From positions 1 to 64,000 of the forward strand of contig CACEFQ010000009.1 in assembly GCA_902558885.1 (NCBI GenBank): a stretch of DNA of 64,000 nt, in the 5' to 3' direction. Shown here one piece after another: positions 11,086 through 64,000 of the stretch (position 1 is the first letter of the stretch; each line of letters begins with the position of its first letter). Below the pieces are notes generated by a model that did no database searches, was not told where the DNA came from, and saw only the letters and a list, made by a program, of their open reading frames with translations. This DNA is from an uncultured SAR116 cluster alpha proteobacterium (GTDB taxonomy: Bacteria > Pseudomonadota > Alphaproteobacteria > Puniceispirillales > Marisalimonadaceae). The position numbers were made by a program, and so were the translations under genes.

Positions 11086-13011
11086 ATGATGATTACTATT
11101 ACACTACCTAGTAAAGACAAAAAACAATATAAGAAACAAGTTACCTCTGCTGAAATTGCAAAAGATATATCAGAAAAACTTGCGTCTGAAGCCTTGGTTT
11201 CACTAGTTAATGGTGAGTTATGGGATTTAGATAGGCCAATTGAAATAGATAGTACAGTTTCAATTTTAACAAAAAAAAATAAAGAAACTTTAGATGTTAT
11301 AAGACATGATGCAGCTCATGTAATGGCTGAAGCAGTTTTAGAATTGTTTCCAGAAACTCAAGTTACCATAGGCCCATCTATTGAAAATGGTTTTTACTAT
11401 GATTTTTATAGAGAGAAGAAATTTAATTTATCTGATTTAGAAGTTATAGAAAAAAGAATGCACGAAATCGTTGATAGAGATGAAAAAATTTCGAGAGAAG
11501 TTTGGTCTAGAGAAAATGCAATAGATTATTTTAAAAAAAATAATGAAAAATTTAAACTTGAATTAGTTAAAGCTATTCCAGAAGACGAAACAGTTACATT
11601 TTATAGGCAAGGTAAATTTATAGATTTGTGTAGAGGTCCTCACACATGTTCAACAAAAAAACTTGGCCACTCTTTCAAACTAACTAAATTAGCAGGATCA
11701 TATTGGAGAGGCGATAGCAAGAATGAAGTATTACAAAGAATTTATGGAACTGCTTTTGTTAATGATAAGGATTTAAAAAATTACCTTTTTATGATTGAAG
11801 AAGCTGAAAAAAGAGATCATAGAAAATTAGGAAAAGAATTAAATTTGTTTCATCTTCAAGAAGAAGCTGTTGGTTCAGTTTTTTGGCATAAAAAAGGTTG
11901 GTCAATTTATCTTGAAATTGAATCTTATATGCGAAGGAGATTGAATAAAACATATGAGGAGGTCAAAACACCTCAAGTCATTGATAGATCTTTATGGGAG
12001 AGATCAGGGCATTGGGATAAATTTCAAGAACACATGTTTATGGCTAAAGGTGACGATGAAAAAGTACTTGCTTTAAAACCTATGAATTGTCCTGGTCACG
12101 TACAAATTTATAAACAAGGTTTAAAATCATACAAAGATCTTCCCATTAGAATGGCAGAGTTTGGTTCTTGTCATCGAAATGAACCTTCAGGAGCTTTGCA
12201 TGGAATTATGAGGGTAAGGCAATTTACCCAAGACGATGCTCATATTTTTTGTATGAATTCTCAAATTACATCAGAATGTGTTAAATTTTGTGAGTTACTC
12301 CAACAAATTTATAAGGATTTTGGTTTTGCAGAATTAAAGGTTAAATTCTCTGATAGGCCTTCAATTCGTGCTGGGGACGATACTACATGGGATAAAGCTG
12401 AAAAAGCTCTTATAGTAGCAATAGAAGCTGCAGAAATTAGCTATACTTTGAATCCTGGTGAAGGTGCATTTTATGGTCCAAAACTTGAATTTGTACTTAC
12501 AGATGCAATAGGAAGAGATTGGCAATGTGGAACGCTTCAGGTAGATTTTGTCTTACCAGAAAGGTTAGGCGCTTATTATGTAGATGTTCATGGGGAAAAA
12601 AAGAATCCTGTTATGCTACACAGAGCAATCTTAGGCTCCTTAGAGAGATGGATTGGTATCTTAATCGAACAATATTCAGGAAGAATGCCATTATGGCTTT
12701 CACCCATTCAAGTTGTGGTGTGTTCTATAGTTGATTCAACTAATGATTATATATATGAAATAAAAAAGAAATTAGATTTAGCTGGGATTAGATGTGAAAT
12801 AGACTTAAGAAATGAAAAAATTGGTTACAAAATTAGAGAACATTCTAATCAAGCTATTCCAATAATTGTAGTTATAGGAAAACAAGAGCAAGAAGATAAA
12901 AGTGTAGCTGTTAGGTACTTAGGTTCAAAAAAACAAGAGTTTTTAAGTTTAAATGAATTTTTAGAAAACATAGTTAATAATTGTATACCTCCTGATTTGA
13001 TCAATGAGTAA
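11086..13011 (+). CDS. thrS: Threonine--tRNA ligase
   Basis: Charges tRNA-Thr. 642 residues from the ATG at 11086 (a second ATG follows at 11089). An in-frame TTG at 11074 exists, but the family start MITITLP fits the ATG pair. Domains: TGS (about 1-62), editing domain with [11 protein letters not shown], class II catalytic core with motif 2 around [20 protein letters not shown], and the C-terminal anticodon-binding domain. Zinc ligands are expected in the core (Cys in MNCPGH and later His). It heads the classic thrS-infC-rpmI-rplT-pheST cluster. No strong ribosome-binding site is seen. Confidence 0.97.
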
Positions 13012-13106
13012 AGTTAGAGGTAATTGTTGCTTTGTTAACTAATTTTTTTGAAATTTATTAACAAATTTCTATAAAATGTTGTATTAGTATTTGAAAATTA
13101 AACAAT

Positions 13107-54017: not shown

Positions 54018-54096
54018 TTTAGCTATCTTTGATTGATCTTTTTAAAATTAAAAATGTATAATCACATAATATATTTTGTATGTGAGGTTGTGGTTA

Positions 54097-55500
54097 TTGG
54101 CTGAATTAATAAATACTATTTTAATTAATAACAAAAAAGTTGAAGTAGAAAATATTCAACATGATATTACCCTTTTAGATTGGTTAAGAAATTATCATAA
54201 ACTAACAGGAACTAAAGAAGGTTGCGCAGAGGGTGATTGCGGTGCTTGTTCAGTAATCATAGAAGACAATGGAAGTGGTAGCTCTAGACCTATAAACGCG
54301 TGCTTAGTAAGGTTAGGCCAAGTGATAGGTAGTTCTGTAACCACAATTGAAGGTCTAGGTTGTGATAAAAATCCACATCCTTTGCAAGTTGCTTTTACTA
54401 AAGAACATGCTTCACAATGTGGATACTGTACTCCGGGTTTTATAATATCAGGTATTAGCTTACTCAATTCTAATAAAAAAATAACCGATGATACAATTAA
54501 TGATGCAATCTCAGGCAATTTGTGCAGGTGTACTGGTTATTCACCTATAATAAAAGCTATTAAGTCTGTTTCAAATGAAAAGATTGCAAAAAACAACAAT
54601 CAAACCATTAATAAAAATAAGAAAATTAATTTTGGAAATGTAACTTATTTTAAACCATCTAATTTAAAAGAGCTTAAAAACTATCTTAATGATGTAAAGG
54701 ATTTTCAATTTCTAGCAGGGGGTACAGATTTAAATCTTCATAGGCCAATTATAAACCAGAAAGAAGACAAGATTATTTGTTTGGATTCAATTAAAGAGTT
54801 GAATTCAATTAAGCACTTTAAAGAAAAAATAGAATTTGGAGGTGCAGTTACAATTGAAAACTTCCTTGAAGCTATTAGATTCAAAATGCCAGAACTTATA
54901 GAAATTCTTCAGAGATTTGGGTCACCTCAAATCAGAAATCAAGGAACAATTGGAGGAAATTTATGCACGTCTAGTCCAATTGGAGATATTGCACCTATAT
55001 TATTAGTTTTAAATTCGAATTTAAAAGTATTTGGAAGAAATGGTTTTAAAAAAATTAATATAAAAAATTTTTTCAAAGGTTATCGAAAGAATATTTTAAA
55101 AAAAGATGAAATAATTTCATCCTTGGAATTACCTATAGCTAACAAAAAAAATAAAATTTTTTCCTGGAAGCTCTCAAAACGATATGATCAAGACATATCA
55201 ACTATCTCTCTTGCTATCAATATTCGAATCCAAAACAATATTATTAAAGAATTACATATGGCTGCTGGAGGGGTGGCAGCAACACCAAAGTTGCTAGATA
55301 AGTTATGCAAACAAATGCTTGAAAAACACTTAGATGATTCAATTGAATTTGCAATTTACAACTTAGATAAATTTATCCAACCAATTTCTGATTTAAGAGG
55401 TTCAGGTTTTTATAGATTAGAGGCAATGAGGGGACTATTAAGAAGATTACAAATTTGTTTAAGTCAGAATAAAAAAAGTTTATCAATAATGGAAGTTTAA
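54097..55500 (+). CDS. xdhA: Xanthine dehydrogenase small subunit (Fe-S and FAD)
   Basis: 467 residues from the TTG at 54097 (GAGG 9 bases upstream); the frame is open to a TTG at 54076, and 54088 is another option. Two 2Fe-2S clusters: Cys43, 48, 51, 68 (GCAEGDCGACS) and Cys108, 111, 143, 145 (QCGYCTPG, CRCTGY). The FAD domain has FLAGGTDLNL and GTIGGNLCTSSPIGD. Takes electrons from the molybdenum subunit and passes them to NAD. Two bases before xdhB. Confidence 0.93.
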   Translation: MAELINTILINNKKVEVENIQHDITLLDWLRNYHKLTGTKEGCAEGDCGACSVIIEDNGSGSSRPINACLVRLGQVIGSSVTTIEGLGCDKNPHPLQVAFTKEHASQCGYCTPGFIISGISLLNSNKKITDDTINDAISGNLCRCTGYSPIIKAIKSVSNEKIAKNNNQTINKNKKINFGNVTYFKPSNLKELKNYLNDVKDFQFLAGGTDLNLHRPIINQKEDKIICLDSIKELNSIKHFKEKIEFGGAVTIENFLEAIRFKMPELIEILQRFGSPQIRNQGTIGGNLCTSSPIGDIAPILLVLNSNLKVFGRNGFKKINIKNFFKGYRKNILKKDEIISSLELPIANKKNKIFSWKLSKRYDQDISTISLAINIRIQNNIIKELHMAAGGVAATPKLLDKLCKQMLEKHLDDSIEFAIYNLDKFIQPISDLRGSGFYRLEAMRGLLRRLQICLSQNKKSLSIMEV

Positions 55501-55502
55501 GA

Positions 55503-57794
55503 ATGAATAATTTAAATAAAATTCCATTTCACGACTCTTCTTTAAGGCATTCTACTGGTCAGGCTATTTATATAGATGATATGCCGGAGCAAGAAAATTT
55601 ATTGCACGGGGCTCCCGTTTTATCAAAATTTGCATGTGGTAAAATAAAAAAAATTAATTCTGACAAACTAAACGACCTACCATTTTTTACTAAAATCATA
55701 ACAGCAAAAGATATCCCTGGTGAAAATGAAATTGGTCCTATCAAAAATGGTGAACCTATTCTAGCAGAAGAATTTTTTTCATATTTAGGCCAACCAGTTG
55801 CGATTGTCTTAGCAAAAACAAATCAAGAAGCTATTTATGCGAGTAGCTTAGTTGAAATTGAAGTGGAGTTCACAACTAAACCTATTCTTAATTTAGACGA
55901 CGCGTATAAACAAAAATCTTTTTTAGAAGATCCAATGATTTTAGAAAAAGGGAACGTTAAAAAGGAGATGTTGCAATCAGATTATAGATTATCTGGAGAT
56001 TTCGAAATCGGTGGACAAGATCATTTTTATTTAGAAACTCATGTTGCCATGACTTTTCCTGGTGAGAATAACGAATATGTTGTGTGGTCAAGTACTCAGC
56101 ATCCTACCGAGGTTCAACACGGTGTTGGAAAGGTTTTAAATATACCATCAGCAAAAATTGATAGTAAAGTTAGAAGGTTAGGAGGTGGGTTTGGTGGAAA
56201 AGAGAGCCAAGCAACTATTTTTGCAGCAATGTCTGCCTTAGGTGCTTATGTAACACAAAAACCAGTAAAGATACGTCTTAACAGACATAACGATATGACT
56301 GCATCAGGGAAAAGACATGACTTCAAAGTATACTTCACCGCAGGATTTACAGTTGATGGTAAGATTCTGGCTTTAGACATAAAACTTCTAAGTAATGGTG
56401 GTAACGTCCTAGACCTTTCAGGGCCTGTAATGACAAGAGCTTTAACTCACCTTGATAATTGTTACTTTATAAAATCACTTAAAGCTATTGGTTATGTATG
56501 TAAAACGAATACAGTTTCAAATACTGCCTTTAGAGGTTTTGGTGGTCCACAAGGAATGTTGGCTATTGAAAATATACTTTATTCAGTTAGTCAACATTTA
56601 CAAAAGCCAATAGATAAAATTCGCCAAATAAATTATTACTCGAGATTAAATGGTCTTAAAACACCATATGGTCAAATTGTTAAAAATCCAAGAATTGAAA
56701 GGGTTTTAAAAGAAATATACAAGTTAAGCGACTATAAAAATAGAATAAGAAATATTAAAGAATTTAACTTAAATCAAAAAAATAATAATTTACCTTTCAG
56801 AAAAGGCATTGCCTTAATGCCTGCAAAATTTGGTATTTCATTTAATAAACCATCTTTAAATCAAGGTGGTGCCCTCGTCCATGTTTATTCTGATGGATCA
56901 ATAAGATTAAATCACGGTGGTACTGAGATGGGGCAAGGCTTATTTATCAAAGTTGCACAAGTAGTAGCGGAATGCTTTAAGGTTTCTGTTGACCAAATTC
57001 ATATAACATCGACTAATACAGCAGAGGTTCCAAATACGTCCGCAACAGCAGCATCATCTGGATCAGATTTAAATGGAATGGCTGCATGGAATGCTTCAAA
57101 CATTATAAAAAATAGAATGGTTGATCATGCTGCGAAATTATTTAAAAAAAATAAAAAAGATATAATTCTTAATGACGGTAGGATTGTTTGTGGTAACAAA
57201 AGCTTATCTTTTTCAGAATTGGCATTTTCATGTTGGGAAAATCGTATCTCTCTATCATCCACAGGGTATTATAAAACTCCTAAAATTTATTGGGATCAAG
57301 GCAAGTTAAAAGGTCATCCTTATTTTTACTTTACTTGGGGAGCCGCAATCTCTGAGGCTTTGTTAGATATTAATACAGGTGAGAGTAGAATCTTAAGGGC
57401 TAATATTGTTCAAGATTGCGGAAATTCTTTGAATGAAAGTATTGATATTGGTCAAATTGAAGGCGGATTTGTCCAGGGACTTGGTTGGTTGACATGTGAA
57501 GAATTATGTTTTTCTCAAGAAGGAAAATTATTAACAACTGGGCCATCAACATATAAATTGCCTGGAAGCCGAGATATACCTAAGGTTTTTAATGTTAAAT
57601 TATTAGAAAATGCTGATAATGAAGAAAAAACAATTTTTAGGTCAAAAGCTGTTGGTGAGCCACCTCTTTTATTAGCAATTTCTCATTTTTTAGCCCTTAA
57701 GGAAGCAATTAAAGATTCATCGGAAGAAACTAAGCCTGAATTGCTTAATTCACCTGCGACTCCATCTGAGATTTTAAGAGTATTAAAGGCTTAA
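55503..57794 (+). CDS. xdhB: Xanthine dehydrogenase molybdopterin subunit
   Basis: 763 residues, usual length. Oxidises hypoxanthine to xanthine and xanthine to urate at a molybdenum centre. Seen: GGGFGGKES, GFGGPQG, GGTEMGQGLF for the cofactor and Glu719 in KAVGEPPLL, the catalytic base. The XdhC sulfur-insertion chaperone is not in this window. Followed by an NCS2 permease after 81 bases with a small hairpin. Confidence 0.95.
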   Translation: MNNLNKIPFHDSSLRHSTGQAIYIDDMPEQENLLHGAPVLSKFACGKIKKINSDKLNDLPFFTKIITAKDIPGENEIGPIKNGEPILAEEFFSYLGQPVAIVLAKTNQEAIYASSLVEIEVEFTTKPILNLDDAYKQKSFLEDPMILEKGNVKKEMLQSDYRLSGDFEIGGQDHFYLETHVAMTFPGENNEYVVWSSTQHPTEVQHGVGKVLNIPSAKIDSKVRRLGGGFGGKESQATIFAAMSALGAYVTQKPVKIRLNRHNDMTASGKRHDFKVYFTAGFTVDGKILALDIKLLSNGGNVLDLSGPVMTRALTHLDNCYFIKSLKAIGYVCKTNTVSNTAFRGFGGPQGMLAIENILYSVSQHLQKPIDKIRQINYYSRLNGLKTPYGQIVKNPRIERVLKEIYKLSDYKNRIRNIKEFNLNQKNNNLPFRKGIALMPAKFGISFNKPSLNQGGALVHVYSDGSIRLNHGGTEMGQGLFIKVAQVVAECFKVSVDQIHITSTNTAEVPNTSATAASSGSDLNGMAAWNASNIIKNRMVDHAAKLFKKNKKDIILNDGRIVCGNKSLSFSELAFSCWENRISLSSTGYYKTPKIYWDQGKLKGHPYFYFTWGAAISEALLDINTGESRILRANIVQDCGNSLNESIDIGQIEGGFVQGLGWLTCEELCFSQEGKLLTTGPSTYKLPGSRDIPKVFNVKLLENADNEEKTIFRSKAVGEPPLLLAISHFLALKEAIKDSSEETKPELLNSPATPSEILRVLKA

Positions 57795-57875: not shown

Positions 57876-59201
57876 ATGAGTGCCTTAGAAAACGTTTCAC
57901 AAGAAGATTTAAAAAATCCTGATTATGTTCCACCTCTGCAAGTAGGTTTGGTTCTTGGGCTACAACATGTATTAGCGATGTTTGTAAGTAACATAACACC
58001 ATCGATAATTATTGCTGGAGCTGCAGGCTTTGCGTTTGGTAGTGCAGACACGATTTTTTTAATTCAAATGTCTATGCTATTTGCAGGTATAGCCACATTA
58101 ATGCAAACAATTGGAATGGGTCCAATAGGAGCTAGGCTCCCAGTAATGCAAGGTACTAGTTTTGCTTTTGTTCCTGTCATGATTGGAGCAGCAAAAATGG
58201 GAATGGGTACATTATTTGGAGGAATAGTTATTGGTGGTATTTTCCATGCATTCTTGGGTTCTTTTATTGGTAAAATCCGCCATTGGTTCCCTCCATTAGT
58301 ATCTGGAATAATTATATTAGCAATTGGAATTTATTTAATTCCTGTAGGTATTCAATATGCTGCAGGAGGTGCAGGTGAATTTAACATGTCTAAACCAACA
58401 TGGGGTGGCATGGGAAATTGGGGCCTTGCAATAATAGTTATTTTGGTTGCTTTTGGACTAAAGTTTTGGACCAAAGGAATTATATCTAGTGCTTCTGTAT
58501 TATTAGGTATGATAGTGGCTTATCTGATTGCTATTTTTATGGGAAGTGTAAATTTCTCTGGGGTAGAAAAAGCAGCTTGGTTTGCGTTGCCAGAACCATT
58601 TAAGTATGGATTTGATATTAATTTAACAGTGATCATAGCTATGTGTTTAATGTCAATTGTAAGTGCAATTGAAACTGTTGGAGATATTTCTGGTATTGCA
58701 AAGGGTGGTGCTAATAGAGAAGCCACAGATAAAGAAATACAAGGTGGCACCTATGCAGACGGAGTTGGAACTGCAGTTGCAGGTGTCTTTGGAGGTCTTC
58801 CAAACACCAGTTTTAGTCAAAATGTTGGATTGATATCTATGACTGGTGTTATGAGTAGATCAGTGGTTACGATAGCTGCAGTTTTTCTTGTGCTTTGTGG
58901 CTTAGTTCCTAAAATAGGGGCCATAGTATCATCTATGCCAATAGCAGTTTTAGGTGGAGGTGTGATTGTAATGTTTGGAATGGTCGCATCTGCAGGTATT
59001 AATATGCTAAGTAGTGTCAATTGGAATAGACGAAATATGATGATTTTTGCTATATCACTCTCTATTGGCTTTGGTTTGCAAAAAGTTCCAGCTTCGGTTT
59101 CAGGACTAGGAACTGAGCTACAGATGTTAATGACATCTGGCTTGTTACCAGCTGCTTTCTTAGCGGTTGTACTGAACTTAATGCTTCCAGAAGAAAATTA
59201 A
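57876..59201 (+). CDS. NCS2-family nucleobase:cation symporter (xanthine/uracil permease type)
   Basis: 441 residues, about 12-14 membrane segments. QVGLVLGLQHVLAMFVSNITPS and the central SIVSAIETVGDISGIAKGG hold the conserved acidic and glutamate residues used for base binding; GTAVAGVFGGLPNTSFSQNVG is the NCS2 signature. AGGAGG precedes the ATG. Placed between xdhB and the deaminase gene, so it probably imports xanthine, urate or another oxopurine with a cation gradient. Confidence 0.92.
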   Translation: MSALENVSQEDLKNPDYVPPLQVGLVLGLQHVLAMFVSNITPSIIIAGAAGFAFGSADTIFLIQMSMLFAGIATLMQTIGMGPIGARLPVMQGTSFAFVPVMIGAAKMGMGTLFGGIVIGGIFHAFLGSFIGKIRHWFPPLVSGIIILAIGIYLIPVGIQYAAGGAGEFNMSKPTWGGMGNWGLAIIVILVAFGLKFWTKGIISSASVLLGMIVAYLIAIFMGSVNFSGVEKAAWFALPEPFKYGFDINLTVIIAMCLMSIVSAIETVGDISGIAKGGANREATDKEIQGGTYADGVGTAVAGVFGGLPNTSFSQNVGLISMTGVMSRSVVTIAAVFLVLCGLVPKIGAIVSSMPIAVLGGGVIVMFGMVASAGINMLSSVNWNRRNMMIFAISLSIGFGLQKVPASVSGLGTELQMLMTSGLLPAAFLAVVLNLMLPEEN

Positions 59202-59279: not shown

Positions 59280-60632
59280 ATGTCAAAACTCTTAATTAAA
59301 AATGCAAGTGTTATTGCCACTATGGACGATGATAGAAAAGAGCTTATTAATAAATCTATTTATTGTGAAGGTGGTGAAATTATTGACATTGGAGACCTAA
59401 AAACTTTTAATTATAATCCTGAAATAGTTATTGATGCATTCGAGATGGTTATCATACCTGGTTTGGTGAATACACATCATCATTTATTTCAAAATTTGAC
59501 ACGCTGTTATCCAGGCTCCCAAAATGAGTCATTATTTGGATGGCTTACAAACTTATATCCTATTTGGAATAAAATTTTACCCTCTGATATTTATATTTCA
59601 ACTTTAATTGGATTATCTGAGATGGTTATTAGTGGGTGTACCACTTCTAGTGATCATTTATATCTCTTTCCAAATGGATCAAAACTTGAAAATCAAATTG
59701 AAGCGGCAGGTGAAGTCGGTTGTAGGTTTCATGCTACTAGAGGCTCAATGAGTATAGGTGTTAGTAAGGGAGGACTTCCACCAGACACACTTACTGAAAA
59801 CGAAAACTCAATTATAAAAGATTGCCAAAGGGTGATTGAAGGTTTTCATGATCCTTCTAAATTTTCAATGTTAAAAATTGCTTTAGCACCATGTTCTCCA
59901 TTTAGCGTTAGTCAAGATTTGATGAAGGAAACTGCTAACTTAGCTCGAAATTACTCGGTTAGTATGCATACTCATTTGGCAGAAAATGACGAAGATATTG
60001 TTTATACCAAAAAAACCTTTGGAATGACTCCAGGTGAATATATTGAAGACTTAGGTTGGGTTGGAGATGATGTTTGGCATGCTCATTGTGTAAAATTAAA
60101 TAAAGCTGAAATTGAATTATTTTCTAGGACAGGAACTGGTATTGCTCATTGTCCTTGTTCAAATATGAGGCTTGCAAGTGGGATAGCCCCTTTGAGAACC
60201 TGGATAGATAAAGGGGTTAAAGTAGGGTTAGGCGTAGATGGTTCAAGCTCAAATGATAGTGGATATCTTTTAAATGAAGCTCGTCAAGCAATGTTATTAC
60301 AGAGAGTTAATTTAGGGGCTAATCAATTTTCACCTAGAGAAGCATTATTCACAGCTACAAGGGGTGGTGCAGAAGTGTTAAACCGAAATGATATAGGTCA
60401 GATTGCTGTTGGCAAAGCTGCAGATTTTGCAATCTATGACTTAAATAAAATTGCTATGTCTGGAGCATGGAGTGACCCTTTGGCTGCTTTAGTATTATGT
60501 ACCCCTGCTGAAACTGCTTACACTATTTGCAATGGAGAGGTAATCTCTCAAAATGGTCATTTAAATAATTTTGATCTTAATTTATCTTTAGAAAAACACA
60601 AGGTTGCATCAAAAAGATTATTGGATTTATAG
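59280..60632 (+). CDS. 8-oxoguanine deaminase-type amidohydrolase
   Basis: 450 residues, metal-dependent (beta/alpha)8 hydrolase. Metal site: NTHHHLF, MHTHLAEN, HAHCV and the Asp in GVDGSSSNDS. The segment FHATRGSMSIGVSKGGLPPD resembles 8-oxoguanine deaminases, which turn 8-oxoguanine into urate, rather than cytosine or guanine deaminases. In the middle of xanthine/urate genes this fits: it would feed urate. AtzB/TrzN-like triazine hydrolases are close relatives, so the exact substrate needs a test. Its stop overlaps the convergent allA by 6 bases. Confidence 0.82.
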   Translation: MSKLLIKNASVIATMDDDRKELINKSIYCEGGEIIDIGDLKTFNYNPEIVIDAFEMVIIPGLVNTHHHLFQNLTRCYPGSQNESLFGWLTNLYPIWNKILPSDIYISTLIGLSEMVISGCTTSSDHLYLFPNGSKLENQIEAAGEVGCRFHATRGSMSIGVSKGGLPPDTLTENENSIIKDCQRVIEGFHDPSKFSMLKIALAPCSPFSVSQDLMKETANLARNYSVSMHTHLAENDEDIVYTKKTFGMTPGEYIEDLGWVGDDVWHAHCVKLNKAEIELFSRTGTGIAHCPCSNMRLASGIAPLRTWIDKGVKVGLGVDGSSSNDSGYLLNEARQAMLLQRVNLGANQFSPREALFTATRGGAEVLNRNDIGQIAVGKAADFAIYDLNKIAMSGAWSDPLAALVLCTPAETAYTICNGEVISQNGHLNNFDLNLSLEKHKVASKRLLDL

Positions 60633-61139
60633 AGTTATGAATCTAGTTTCATTATTTGTAAAATGATATTCTTTTAAATTAATAGAAGAATCTTCTTGAT
60701 CATTTATCCTGTCAATTACCCAAAAATCTTGTTTCTTTTTAACTAAAAGAGGGTGATGCCAAACATTTTTATTGTATGTGATACCAGTATCCCCATTTAC
60801 ATGGAAACATCTTAAAGTACTCAAATCTGGTACTTCATTTTTTTCTTCGCAAACAACTATTAACCAATCATAATTTTGAATAGGAAGAAAACTTTGAGAA
60901 GCAACAGGATGTTTCTCCATAATCTTTATTTCTATAGGAAGGTCTCTTGGTAAACCAGAAAAGATAGAAATGCCTGAATTTCCATTTTTACTTTCTAAAT
61001 CTAACTCAGAAACATTATGATACCTAGTAGTCGTTCCTTGATTGATAGAACGTAATTCTGATGCATTTTTCTTTTCTATAATATTCCCAAATCTAGAAAA
61101 AATATTAGTATCTATTTGTTCAATTAAAATAGTTTTCAT
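60627..61139 (-). CDS. allA: Ureidoglycolate lyase
   Basis: 170 residues, the usual AllA length, cupin-like fold. Splits ureidoglycolate into glyoxylate and urea. Family stretches: FSRFGNIIEKK near the start, FLPIQNYDWLIVVCEEKNEVPDL and GITYNKNVWHHPLLV with the histidines. One base after allantoicase in transcription order. Final step of the ureide route here. Confidence 0.92.
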   Translation of the reverse strand: MKTILIEQIDTNIFSRFGNIIEKKNASELRSINQGTTTRYHNVSELDLESKNGNSGISIFSGLPRDLPIEIKIMEKHPVASQSFLPIQNYDWLIVVCEEKNEVPDLSTLRCFHVNGDTGITYNKNVWHHPLLVKKKQDFWVIDRINDQEDSSINLKEYHFTNNETRFITL

Positions 61140-61140
61140 T

Positions 61141-62133
61141 TTACAATTTTAAACCAAAAATTCTTAATCTTGATACCCCTCCGTCAGGATATATATTTAA
61201 TCTGACATGAGTCACACCTTCAGTTGACGTGTCATCAACTTCGTAATTATGTATATTGTCTGCTTGTAGTTTAGATTTGCCCAATATGTACTTCCAGTTC
61301 TGAGAGTCATTTATAATTTCTTCTAAACTTTTATTTTCGCCAAAGTTTGAAGTCTGCACTGATGCTTGATCTGGATAATTTCCTTTAAAATGAGCGGTAT
61401 CTATTTCAATTTTTTTTATTAAACCTTTGGTTGCTAATTTAATTATAATCCAGTCATGACCGGGTTCTCTTCTCCTTCTTGTTTCCCAACCATCACCCAT
61501 TGTTTTTCCTCTTCCATCAGATAGAAGAGCAGATACGTCACCATAATGAGCATTATTATAAGCAATAATAGAACCACCTAATTTTAAGGATGATAATTCA
61601 ATTAGATCTTTTTTATTATTATAAATATCCCAATCAAATTTTACTTCACCAAACAATCTTAATCTTGCAACCCCTCCATCAGGAAAAATTTGTAATTTAA
61701 TGTAATTTACTTTTGATTTTGATTGTATCTTAAATTTATTACTGGAGTCTCCCTTTAAAGATGTTTTAGATATTATCTCAATCCAGTCAGAGTCATTATT
61801 AGGTTTTTGATCGCTGTACAAACCTTCAATTGAAGCAAAAGGAGGAAAATTTCCAGTGAAAAAACTTGTATCAATATCTACCTCAGAAATTGTTCCTGGA
61901 GATCCTAACTCTATTATAGCCCAATCATTACCACCATCTCTTCTTCTTTTACTCTCCCATCCATCCATCCACTTTCCATGCTCATCATACTTATCTTCAA
62001 TGAAAACTGGTTCTTTATCATCTAGCATACGTGAAGCTTCACCGAAGAAATCATCAGAAACTTCAATTATTTTTGTACCAATTTTTGGAGAAGCTAGATT
62101 AGTTAAATTTTGATTTTTATTGTTTACACTCAT
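61141..62133 (-). CDS. alc: Allantoicase
   Basis: 330 residues built from two similar jelly-roll domains: WMDGWESKRRRDGGNDWAII with IDTSFFTGNFP in the first and MGDGWETRRRREPGHDWIII with IDTAHFKGNYP in the second. Hydrolyses allantoate to ureidoglycolate and urea. Its place between the hydantoinase-type hydrolase and AllA gives a consecutive pathway order. Confidence 0.95.
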   Translation of the reverse strand: MSVNNKNQNLTNLASPKIGTKIIEVSDDFFGEASRMLDDKEPVFIEDKYDEHGKWMDGWESKRRRDGGNDWAIIELGSPGTISEVDIDTSFFTGNFPPFASIEGLYSDQKPNNDSDWIEIISKTSLKGDSSNKFKIQSKSKVNYIKLQIFPDGGVARLRLFGEVKFDWDIYNNKKDLIELSSLKLGGSIIAYNNAHYGDVSALLSDGRGKTMGDGWETRRRREPGHDWIIIKLATKGLIKKIEIDTAHFKGNYPDQASVQTSNFGENKSLEEIINDSQNWKYILGKSKLQADNIHNYEVDDTSTEGVTHVRLNIYPDGGVSRLRIFGLKL

Positions 62134-62148
62134 TTTTTTCCTATTTAT

Positions 62149-63555
62149 TTAAAGCATACAAAAATCTCTAGAAATATATTTTCCTAAATTTTTGTTAACT
62201 ATGAATTCATTCTTATCGTAAATTTTATTACCTCTTAACCAAGTTTGTATTGGCCATCCAGTAATATCTAGACCTTCATAAGGAGTATAATCAGAGCCAT
62301 GGCTGAGATTAATTTGTTGAATTTTATTTTTTTTATTAGGATCCCAAATTGTTATATCAGCATCAGATCCAACTTTAATTGATCCTTTTTTAGGATAAAG
62401 GCCATACATTTTGGCAGGATTAGTAGAAGTTAGCTCTACAAACCTTTCCAAGCTAATTCTATTTTTGCTTACACCCTCAGAAAACAAAATTGGCAATCTT
62501 GTTTCTACTCCTGGAATACCATTTGGAACCCATTTAAATGATGTTCTTGCTCCAGGCCTGTCTTTACCCTTACTATCCTTGAAACGGAATGGACAATGAT
62601 CTGATGAAAAGATATCGAAAGTTCCATCGATTAATCCATCCCAAATAGCTTGTTGACTTTCTAAATCTCTTGGTGGAGGAGAGCATACGTATTTTGCTCC
62701 CTCAAAATCCATATTTAATCCTTTCATATCATCTTCAGTTAAACAAATATACTGAGGGCAAGTTTCAGAAAAAATTTTAATTCCTCTATCTTTTGCCCAT
62801 TTAATTTGAGATAGTGCTTCCTCTCCCGAAACATGAACAATTACAATTGGAATATCAACTATTTGGGCATGACTTATGGCTCTGTGTGTTGCTTCTCTTT
62901 CCACAATCTGAGGCCGTGACAACCCATGATAATAAGGGGCTAATTTTCCTTCATCCTCTAATTTTTTAGTTAAAAATCTAATAGCATCATATCCTTCAGC
63001 ATGGACCATAACTAACGTTTTCTCATTTTTAGCTACTTCGAAAACTTTCAAGAGTTCTTCATCATTTAAAACTAGATCATCATATGTCATAAATACTTTG
63101 AAAGAGGTATAACCATCTCTTGCTAGTGCAGGGAGCTCTTGTCCTAAAACTTGTGGTGAAGGATCACTTATAATCAAGTGAAATGAAGTGTCTACATACA
63201 AATTGCCATTAGCCTTTTTATGATAATTTTCTACACTTTCTCTGAGAGATTGTCCTTTTTCTTGCATGGCAAAAGGTAAAACTGTGGTATTACCTCCAGC
63301 TGCGGCAGATTTTGTTGCGCTTTGAAAGTTATCAGCCATTTCAATGTCTGGTCCTGATGGTTGATCTATATGGACATGGGCATCTATACCGCCAGGCAGA
63401 ACCAATAGATTAGAAACATCTTCTACAATTTTTGCTTCAGCATTGATTTCGCCTATATCACAAATTTTTCCGTCAGAAACTGCAATGTCACAGTCTTCCA
63501 CACCATTTTCAGTTACTGTTTTTCCGTTTTTAAAAATTATGTCAAAGTTTTTCAT
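62149..63555 (-). CDS. Dihydropyrimidinase/hydantoinase-family hydrolase, probable allantoinase
   Basis: 468-residue cyclic amidohydrolase with the complete binuclear metal set: His60 and His62 (DAHVHI), carboxylated Lys153 (SFKVFMTYD), His185, His241 and Asp319 (SSDHCPF). Sequence style is D-hydantoinase/dihydropyrimidinase (HLIISDPSPQVLGQELPAL), not classic AllB. Located between puuD and alc, where an allantoinase is the missing step, so ring opening of allantoin is likely. Dihydropyrimidine hydrolysis is the alternative; upp nearby shows pyrimidine genes are present. Confidence 0.85.
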   Translation of the reverse strand: MKNFDIIFKNGKTVTENGVEDCDIAVSDGKICDIGEINAEAKIVEDVSNLLVLPGGIDAHVHIDQPSGPDIEMADNFQSATKSAAAGGNTTVLPFAMQEKGQSLRESVENYHKKANGNLYVDTSFHLIISDPSPQVLGQELPALARDGYTSFKVFMTYDDLVLNDEELLKVFEVAKNEKTLVMVHAEGYDAIRFLTKKLEDEGKLAPYYHGLSRPQIVEREATHRAISHAQIVDIPIVIVHVSGEEALSQIKWAKDRGIKIFSETCPQYICLTEDDMKGLNMDFEGAKYVCSPPPRDLESQQAIWDGLIDGTFDIFSSDHCPFRFKDSKGKDRPGARTSFKWVPNGIPGVETRLPILFSEGVSKNRISLERFVELTSTNPAKMYGLYPKKGSIKVGSDADITIWDPNKKNKIQQINLSHGSDYTPYEGLDITGWPIQTWLRGNKIYDKNEFIVNKNLGKYISRDFCML

Positions 63556-63572
63556 TAACTATTCTCCAATGA

Positions 63573-64000
63573 CTATTTATTTTTCATGTTATGAACGCTC
63601 ATATAAAGTTGATTAATTAAACTTCGTTCATTGTCTTCAAGGAAAGAAATATTACCAGGTGGCATCGCATATGATAACACAGACTGTTTATATATATTAT
63701 CAATGTTATTAATTATATCTGTAGATGTTTCTAAATTGACTAATTTTGGAGCATTTTTCATATTTTCCCATAAAGGCTCTTTCGCATGACACATTGAACA
63801 TTTAGATACAATTATCTCTTGAGCACTTACCAAAGTTTTTTCTGGGATTAGTTCGATCAAAGTAGCTGTGTTTTTTACGTCATTTAGTTTTGGTTTACCC
63901 AAGTCTGAAATATAAAAAATTATTGATCCTAGAATAATTATTGGAACACATACCCAATAAGGTGGTTTGGCTCCAGTATGTTTAATATTGAAAAAATGTC
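63573..64000 (-). CDS. puuD: Urate oxidase/hydroxylase PuuD, C-terminal part (cut by window edge)
   Basis: The visible 141 residues run from the right edge. They show a last membrane segment (PPYWVCVPIIILGSIIFYIS) and a cytochrome c domain with heme motif CSMCH and the axial Met region YAMPPGNISFL. This is the C-terminus of the membrane-bound urate oxidase PuuD, which turns urate to 5-hydroxyisourate and passes electrons to the respiratory chain. A TTG at 63902 is internal, because the frame continues to the edge. 17 bases before the allantoinase-like gene. Confidence 0.85.
   Translation of the reverse strand, partial: HFFNIKHTGAKPPYWVCVPIIILGSIIFYISDLGKPKLNDVKNTATLIELIPEKTLVSAQEIIVSKCSMCHAKEPLWENMKNAPKLVNLETSTDIINNIDNIYKQSVLSYAMPPGNISFLEDNERSLINQLYMSVHNMKNK

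Follow-up and report, generated by a model that had tools for sequence, protein, structure and literature searches.

The allantoinase step in a SAR116 urate operon

Urate is degraded by way of (S)-allantoin, allantoate, and ureidoglycolate to glyoxylate and urea, through PuuD, UraH, and UraD, an allantoinase, Alc, and AllA. To our knowledge, two types of bacterial allantoinase are recognized, AllB and PuuE. The locus described here raises the question of which enzyme performs the allantoinase step in a SAR116 operon where the gene between puuD and alc encodes a hydantoinase-type protein, here called HYD. The window analyzed is the whole 64,000-nucleotide stretch C9:1-64000; contig C9 extends to position 78241, and the genome is 76% complete. 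A sequence-only reading of the window had placed this hydantoinase-type enzyme at the allantoinase step, a placement supported by how the genes co-occur, by synteny, and by the finding that neither AllB nor PuuE passes its cut-off in the window's SAR116 family (family f1). HYD is probably the allantoinase of the f1 urate pathway, recruited from the PRK13404 hydantoinases into the slot of PuuE.

Operon and surroundings

The genes uraH, puuD, HYD, alc, and allA lie in this order on the minus strand, separated by gaps of 2, 17, 15, and 1 bp (Table 1). This gene order is that of the pathway, which counts in favor of HYD as the allantoinase. The neighbors that the sequence-only reading had named, PuuD before HYD and Alc and AllA after it, are confirmed by their PF06181, TIGR02961, and PF04115 matches, although the allA-type gene remains below the NCBIfam ureidoglycolate lyase cut-offs. 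The window end cuts puuD, which in its entirety spans C9:63573-64796, and the C-terminal part of PuuD, as read off the translation, contains a CSMCH heme-type motif.

An 8-oxoguanine-deaminase-type gene is kept beside the operon in family f1 loci. The product of 8-oxoguanine deaminase is urate, and the neighbor in the window, going by its family match, would supply PuuD directly. Elsewhere in the genome, C1:148376-148957 (L009:8377-8958, minus strand) encodes a protein of 193 aa that is membrane-like by sequence and weakly matches the PuuD N-terminal domain (31.5 bits). Such weak matches recur in many f1 genomes, away from the purine operon.

Table 1. Features of the HYD locus, with positions in the window.
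Feature	Position	Strand	Basis
HYD, PRK13404-type D-hydantoinase/dihydropyrimidinase, candidate allantoinase	62149..63555	minus	ORF, family cut-offs, metal ligands, AlphaFold model
alc, allantoicase (next step)	61141..62133	minus	TIGR02961, 411 bits (cut-off 278)
allA-type ureidoglycolate lyase	60627..61139	minus	PF04115, 159 bits (cut-off 23)
puuD, 3′ part (urate oxidase)	63573..63998	minus	PF06181, 417 bits (whole gene)
Amidohydrolase scoring as 8-oxoguanine deaminase	59280..60632	plus	NF006055, 643 bits (cut-off 532)
NCS2 xanthine-type permease	57876..59201	plus	TIGR03173, 431 bits (cut-off 414)
Xanthine dehydrogenase, molybdopterin subunit	55503..57794	plus	TIGR02965, 966 bits (cut-off 850)
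Xanthine dehydrogenase, small subunit	54076..55500	plus	TIGR02963, 409 bits (below cut-off 467)

Family assignment and fold of HYD

HYD is an intact open reading frame of 468 aa, and the plus strand of the same stretch is riddled with stop codons. The protein scores 681 bits against NF009941 (PRK13404 dihydropyrimidinase, cut-off 647) and 502 bits against TIGR02033 (D-hydantoinase, cut-off 393), and does not reach the cut-off of the AllB family TIGR03178 (281 vs. 358 bits), so that its earlier typing as a dihydropyrimidinase holds. The metal ligands H60, H62, K153, H185, H241, and D319 are all present, as the sequence-only reading had stated, and are identical in every one of 37 distinct close relatives, a set defined by at least 76% identity to HYD and counting the window's own protein. 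The nearest named matches (77–98% identity) come mostly from single-cell and metagenome genomes of the SAR116 cluster. HYD exceeds Alc in conservation at all 30 of the family f1 loci compared, a further point in its favor.

The AlphaFold model of HYD (mean pLDDT 92.6) matches 1nfg with a TM score of 0.94 and 43% identity, 3sfw with a Z score of 58.1, 1k1d with a Z score of 57.9 (rmsd 1.6 Å), and E. coli AllB 3e74 with a Z score of 51.0 (rmsd 1.9 Å, 33% identity); the second structural comparison covered Foldseek's own matches. In the model, D-hydantoinases and dihydropyrimidinases thus rank over AllB (Z 58 vs. 51), as the sequence predicts, which is information on the fold that leaves the substrate undecided. 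The sequence-only reading had spoken of a non-homologous replacement within the same superfamily. Relative to AllB, the match to 3e74 makes HYD homologous and non-orthologous, and "non-homologous" is apt for PuuE only.

Co-occurrence of HYD with the pathway

HYD (E ≤ 1e-50), PuuE, allantoicase, AllB, and PuuD were used to search 121 genomes of the order, 52 of which belong to family f1; many f1 genomes are incomplete. HYD is found in 36 of the 52, and all 36 carry alc, adjacent by coordinates in every one. Two further f1 genomes, G181 and G201, bring the number with alc to 38 and are the only ones of these to lack HYD; their alc is cut by the contig end, beginning at contig position 9 or 4. 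The association of HYD with alc in f1 gives a Fisher p of 7e-11, computed ignoring relatedness and linkage. The 52 f1 genomes, partly incomplete as they are, hold no over-cut-off match to either AllB or PuuE: none of the 121 genomes of the order has AllB over its cut-off, and PuuE is over its own in 52 of the 121, divided as 0 of 52 inside f1 and 52 of 69 outside it.

PuuD scores above 280 bits in 33 of the 36 HYD-bearing f1 genomes. The exceptions are G148 and G247, where HYD lies at the very start of its contig, and G249, where the contig stops 6.5 kb from HYD. At the f1 loci fetched, puuD adjoins HYD in 23 of 30; in G195, G203, and G199 it is 11–15 kb away, with alc still adjoining HYD. In G205 (C7:1646-3047), HYD is present in two overlapping frames, through sequencing error or gene decay, and this is the sole f1 genome of that kind.

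PuuE in the same slot outside the family

In three genomes from other families of the order, the position between puuD and alc is taken by PuuE. Locus L165 of G147 contains guaD, allA, alc, PuuE, and puuD, with PuuE at 509 bits and over its cut-off; this is the gene order of the window except that PuuE stands in the position of HYD, and guaD and allA flank likewise. G143 and G150, of the same order and of families other than f1, have puuD-PuuE-alc by coordinates with PuuE over its cut-off, and in G204 PuuE adjoins alc, with puuD on a separate contig. For G146, the fifth alc-bearing genome of the order outside f1, the PuuE search found no match. A sample of the class contained alc in 30 of 289 genomes, with PuuE within about 1.5 kb at 24 loci, HYD at one (the window's own), and neither at five. 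Two of these five genomes (G061 and G093) carry over-cut-off PuuE elsewhere. The related alphaproteobacteria G033 (L168), G281 (L169), and G378 (L167) have alc and only sub-cut-off relatives of PuuE (259–263 bits), none adjacent to alc.

HYD is favored as the allantoinase by its coupling to alc, by the failure of both AllB and PuuE to exceed their cut-offs in f1, and by the slot swap with PuuE. Going by these sequence comparisons, HYD is most probably a non-orthologous displacement of PuuE in f1.

A PuuE-like gene beyond puuD

According to the sequence-only reading, the operon contains neither an AllB-like nor a PuuE-like gene, and this is correct for the operon itself. However, at C9:67492-68394, 2.7 kb past puuD, there is a PuuE-like gene, on the opposite strand and in another gene cluster. 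An allantoinase gene beside puuD outside the window had been named as the case that would speak against HYD; on paper the PuuE-like gene is such a case, and the two candidates were therefore compared for how closely each tracks the pathway. TIGR03212 is the best NCBIfam family for the PuuE-like protein, yet the score is 292 bits against a cut-off of 425, and the distribution of the gene does not follow the pathway. It matches Pseudomonas fluorescens PuuE (3cl6) over nearly its full length (251 bits, E 8e-74). In a 36-row tree, it joins other proteins of its module type, apart from the alc-adjacent PuuE proteins (support 100/99, with long-branch warnings).

Beyond uraH, the plus strand carries uraD and then a module at C9:65784-75046 (L008:5784-15046) of DapA-type, PF01177 racemase-family, PuuE-like, TRAP transporter, HyuA-type, and HyuB-type genes, where the TRAP and HyuB labels are a reading of the translated sequences. 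Many, not all, family f1 genomes have this module, which may possibly serve the import of hydantoin or allantoin.

At a presence threshold of at least 200 bits, which is below the family cut-off, 22 of the 36 f1 genomes with HYD have the PuuE-like gene. It was not found in the other 14 with HYD and alc, which include G172 (95% complete) and G166 (90%). In seven of these 14, puuD, uraH, uraD, HYD, alc, and allA occupy one contig stretch that continues without the PuuE-like gene (L116, L118, L119, L120, L122, L123, and L129); two of the seven genomes, G166 and G172, are at least 90% complete. If the gene were universal in the 36, 8.5 misses would be expected, and the probability of at least 14 is 0.02, assuming independence. 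HYD begins at a contig end in G148 and G247, so a missing PuuE-like gene there tells little. Two f1 genomes without alc and HYD, G235 and G237, have the PuuE-like gene. In G160 (contig C15, about 12137-13016, L137), one of the 22 genomes with both genes, it is broken into two overlapping frames, and the adjoining purine operon is intact.

Lid residues and stereochemistry

The lid over the exocyclic group consists of M63, L65, F152, Y155, and F159 in a Bacillus hydantoinase, and of E64, G66, F148, T151, and F161 in E. coli AllB (PMC9863593). Mapped from that description, the lid of HYD is Q65/S67/F155/Y158/V162, without variation across the 37 distinct close relatives. The two loop-I positions are therefore polar in HYD, M/L in the Bacillus enzyme, and E/G in E. 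coli AllB; of the AllB features E64, G66, T151, and the long loop II, HYD has none, with Q65, S67, Y158, and a short loop instead. The polar residues Q and S would fit well with a ureido group.

The lid is nevertheless compatible with an allantoinase and not diagnostic of one, because its residues are common in more distant PRK13404-type proteins: Q is at position 65 in 81 of 81 (49 + 32), and V at position 162 in 47 of the 49 at 55–76% identity to HYD. In the 32 at 41–55% identity, position 162 is K in 20 and R in eight, and these 28 of 32 suggest that the wider PRK13404 subfamily may act on a substrate with an acidic exocyclic group. The same lid, V162 included, is found in proteins of Bradyrhizobium and Rhodobacteraceae. 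V162 was accordingly rejected as an allantoinase signature, and the lid as a whole is none, since it is shared by relatives whose genomes carry over-cut-off PuuE (seven of the nine nearest-relative genomes).

UraD naturally yields (S)-allantoin. By CIP analysis, with priorities assigned by hand, (S)-allantoin has at C5 the spatial arrangement of a D-5-substituted hydantoin. A D-hydantoinase would therefore need no change of handedness for it.

Relatives outside the family and origin of HYD

In a tree of 65 rows, the 13 f1 HYD proteins form one clade (100/100) inside PRK13404, nested in a clade of 23 rows (100/100) with Bradyrhizobium, Phreatobacter, Paracoccaceae, and others. Outside f1, alc was beside PRK13404 in 0 of 35 class-sample loci (24 around over-cut-off hits and 11 around weaker ones) and in none of a further 46 non-SAR116 loci, and it is absent from the product names of six plasmid PRK13404 loci (six of 205 matching records). 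The neighbors at the examined loci outside f1 are DapA-type, racemase-family, transporter, amidase, aminotransferase, or isochorismatase-type genes. PRK13404 as a general alphaproteobacterial allantoinase is unsupported, there being no alc at the examined loci outside f1.

PuuE was searched for in nine genomes of the closest relatives outside f1 and exceeds its cut-off in seven (G407–G411, G107, and G254); G412 (L213) and G071 (L059) showed no over-cut-off PuuE. At L206, about 7.5 kb separate the HYD homologue from a PuuD homologue of 47% identity, and the same genome has a PuuE of 543 bits. The simplest history, as far as sequences tell, would be that HYD was recruited from an alphaproteobacterial PRK13404 hydantoinase in the f1 ancestor and that PuuE was lost.

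Alternative readings

Several points were counted against HYD: the PuuE-like gene lies close to puuD, it is present in 22 of the 36 genomes with HYD, HYD is split in G205, its lid recurs outside f1, PRK13404 genes at the examined loci outside f1 are not with alc, and many f1 genomes are incomplete. In addition, the substrate ranges of hydantoinases and allantoinases are described as not overlapping (PMC9863593). It is quite unlikely, all the same, that the PuuE-like protein is the allantoinase, aided by the adjoining racemase, and that HYD has another role. The near full-length match to 3cl6, TIGR03212 as the best family, and the proximity to puuD speak for this, as does a study of ocean genomes, SAR116 included, whose list of purine genes names PuuE and allantoin racemase (PMC11698098). 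However, the protein falls short of the PuuE cut-off and stands apart from the alc-adjacent PuuE proteins in a tree with long-branch warnings, and its gene occurs without alc or HYD in two genomes and is broken in a third that keeps the operon. As the main allantoinase it was rejected because it was not found in 14 of the 36 operon-bearing f1 genomes and belongs to a separate gene module. The two proteins might also share the substrate by opposite stereopreference: HYD would act on the (S)-form from UraD, and the (R)-form, or racemic allantoin taken up from outside, would fall to the PuuE-like protein together with the racemase and TRAP transporter. The racemase-family and TRAP genes flanking the PuuE-like gene are in keeping with such a division, and so are the HYD-RACE-PUUE-TRAP cluster of G107 (L049), where a PRK13404 hydantoinase of its own lies beside racemase, PuuE-like, and TRAP genes, and the occurrence of HYD together with PuuE-like and racemase genes in G254 (L128). 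The module also holds DapA-type and HyuA/HyuB-type genes, though, and we regard this division as very improbable; as regards HYD, it overlaps the best explanation.

Hardly any probability attaches to the reading that HYD is a genuine dihydropyrimidinase, belongs to reductive pyrimidine breakdown, and just happens to be located in a purine operon. Two curated cut-offs and the family names point to dihydropyrimidinase, and carbamoylase-family TIGR01879 genes are over the cut-off in seven of seven f1 genomes examined, whereas none of the seven has an over-cut-off match to NF006183 (PRK08318), which we take to represent subunit PreA of dihydropyrimidine dehydrogenase. Middling NF006183 matches occur only in G152 and G172 (135 and 144 bits), each adjoining a carbamoylase gene. 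Furthermore, there is no case of HYD without alc in family f1, and the second lid position is S in HYD but F in nine of nine dihydropyrimidinase-type proteins. Because no NF006183 match exceeded the cut-off in the seven genomes, a dihydropyrimidinase role is unlikely for most of f1; a side activity is conceivable.

With HYD as the allantoinase, the reading that we prefer, PuuD, UraH, and UraD would yield (S)-allantoin, and HYD would open its hydantoin ring to give allantoate at a binuclear metal center bridged by carbamylated K153. Alc and AllA would continue to ureidoglycolate, glyoxylate, and urea. In evolutionary terms, a PRK13404 hydantoinase gene would have taken the slot held by PuuE in the sister families. 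A wider version, in which one SAR116 family has a third evolutionary type of allantoinase, often beside the racemase/PuuE-like/TRAP module, and hydrolyzes its own and imported enantiomers with two unrelated folds, we consider rather unlikely.

Implications and comparison with known systems

Purine cross-feeding in SAR116 has been mapped with PuuE as the allantoinase gene named, and in the main text of that paper "PuuE" occurs once and "AllB," "hydantoin," and "dihydropyrimidinase" zero times (PMC11698098, 2025). Among open-licence PMC papers, a literature search returned no description of a hydantoinase-type allantoinase for SAR116, an abundant ocean group. If the proposal is true, a third type of allantoinase annotated as "dihydropyrimidinase" would account for a step that seems to be missing from SAR116 purine catabolism, and surveys limited to PuuE and AllB would under-call allantoin use. 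The D-hydantoin arrangement of (S)-allantoin hints at a route by which allantoin could become a substrate of a D-hydantoinase.

A comparable case in the literature is archaeal. HVO_B0302 (pucH1) of Haloferax volcanii is 33% identical to D-hydantoinase and 30% to AllB, and is listed for purine degradation beside urate genes (PMC8305020). It differs from HYD in being ambiguous between both families and in belonging to a pathway called "highly speculative," and the account of this gene claims no replacement of PuuE (PMC8305020).

HYD shares with D-hydantoinases and bacterial dihydropyrimidinases the same metal ligands and conserved Ser292 and Asn345, but differs in its place within a urate-allantoin operon of SAR116 family f1 and in its polar lid Q65/S67 and V162. 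With AllB (TIGR03178), it has in common the superfamily, fold, metal ligands, and proposed reaction; it lacks the longer loop II and the E/G/T lid of AllB, and has Asn345 where AllB aligns Gly. The relation to PuuE (TIGR03212) is one of position: in G147, G143, and G150, the PuuE of sister families fills the slot of HYD between puuD and alc, yet PuuE has the polysaccharide deacetylase family fold and HYD is an amidohydrolase of unrelated fold. With two unrelated enzymes filling a single slot of the same operon, the case amounts to a natural experiment.
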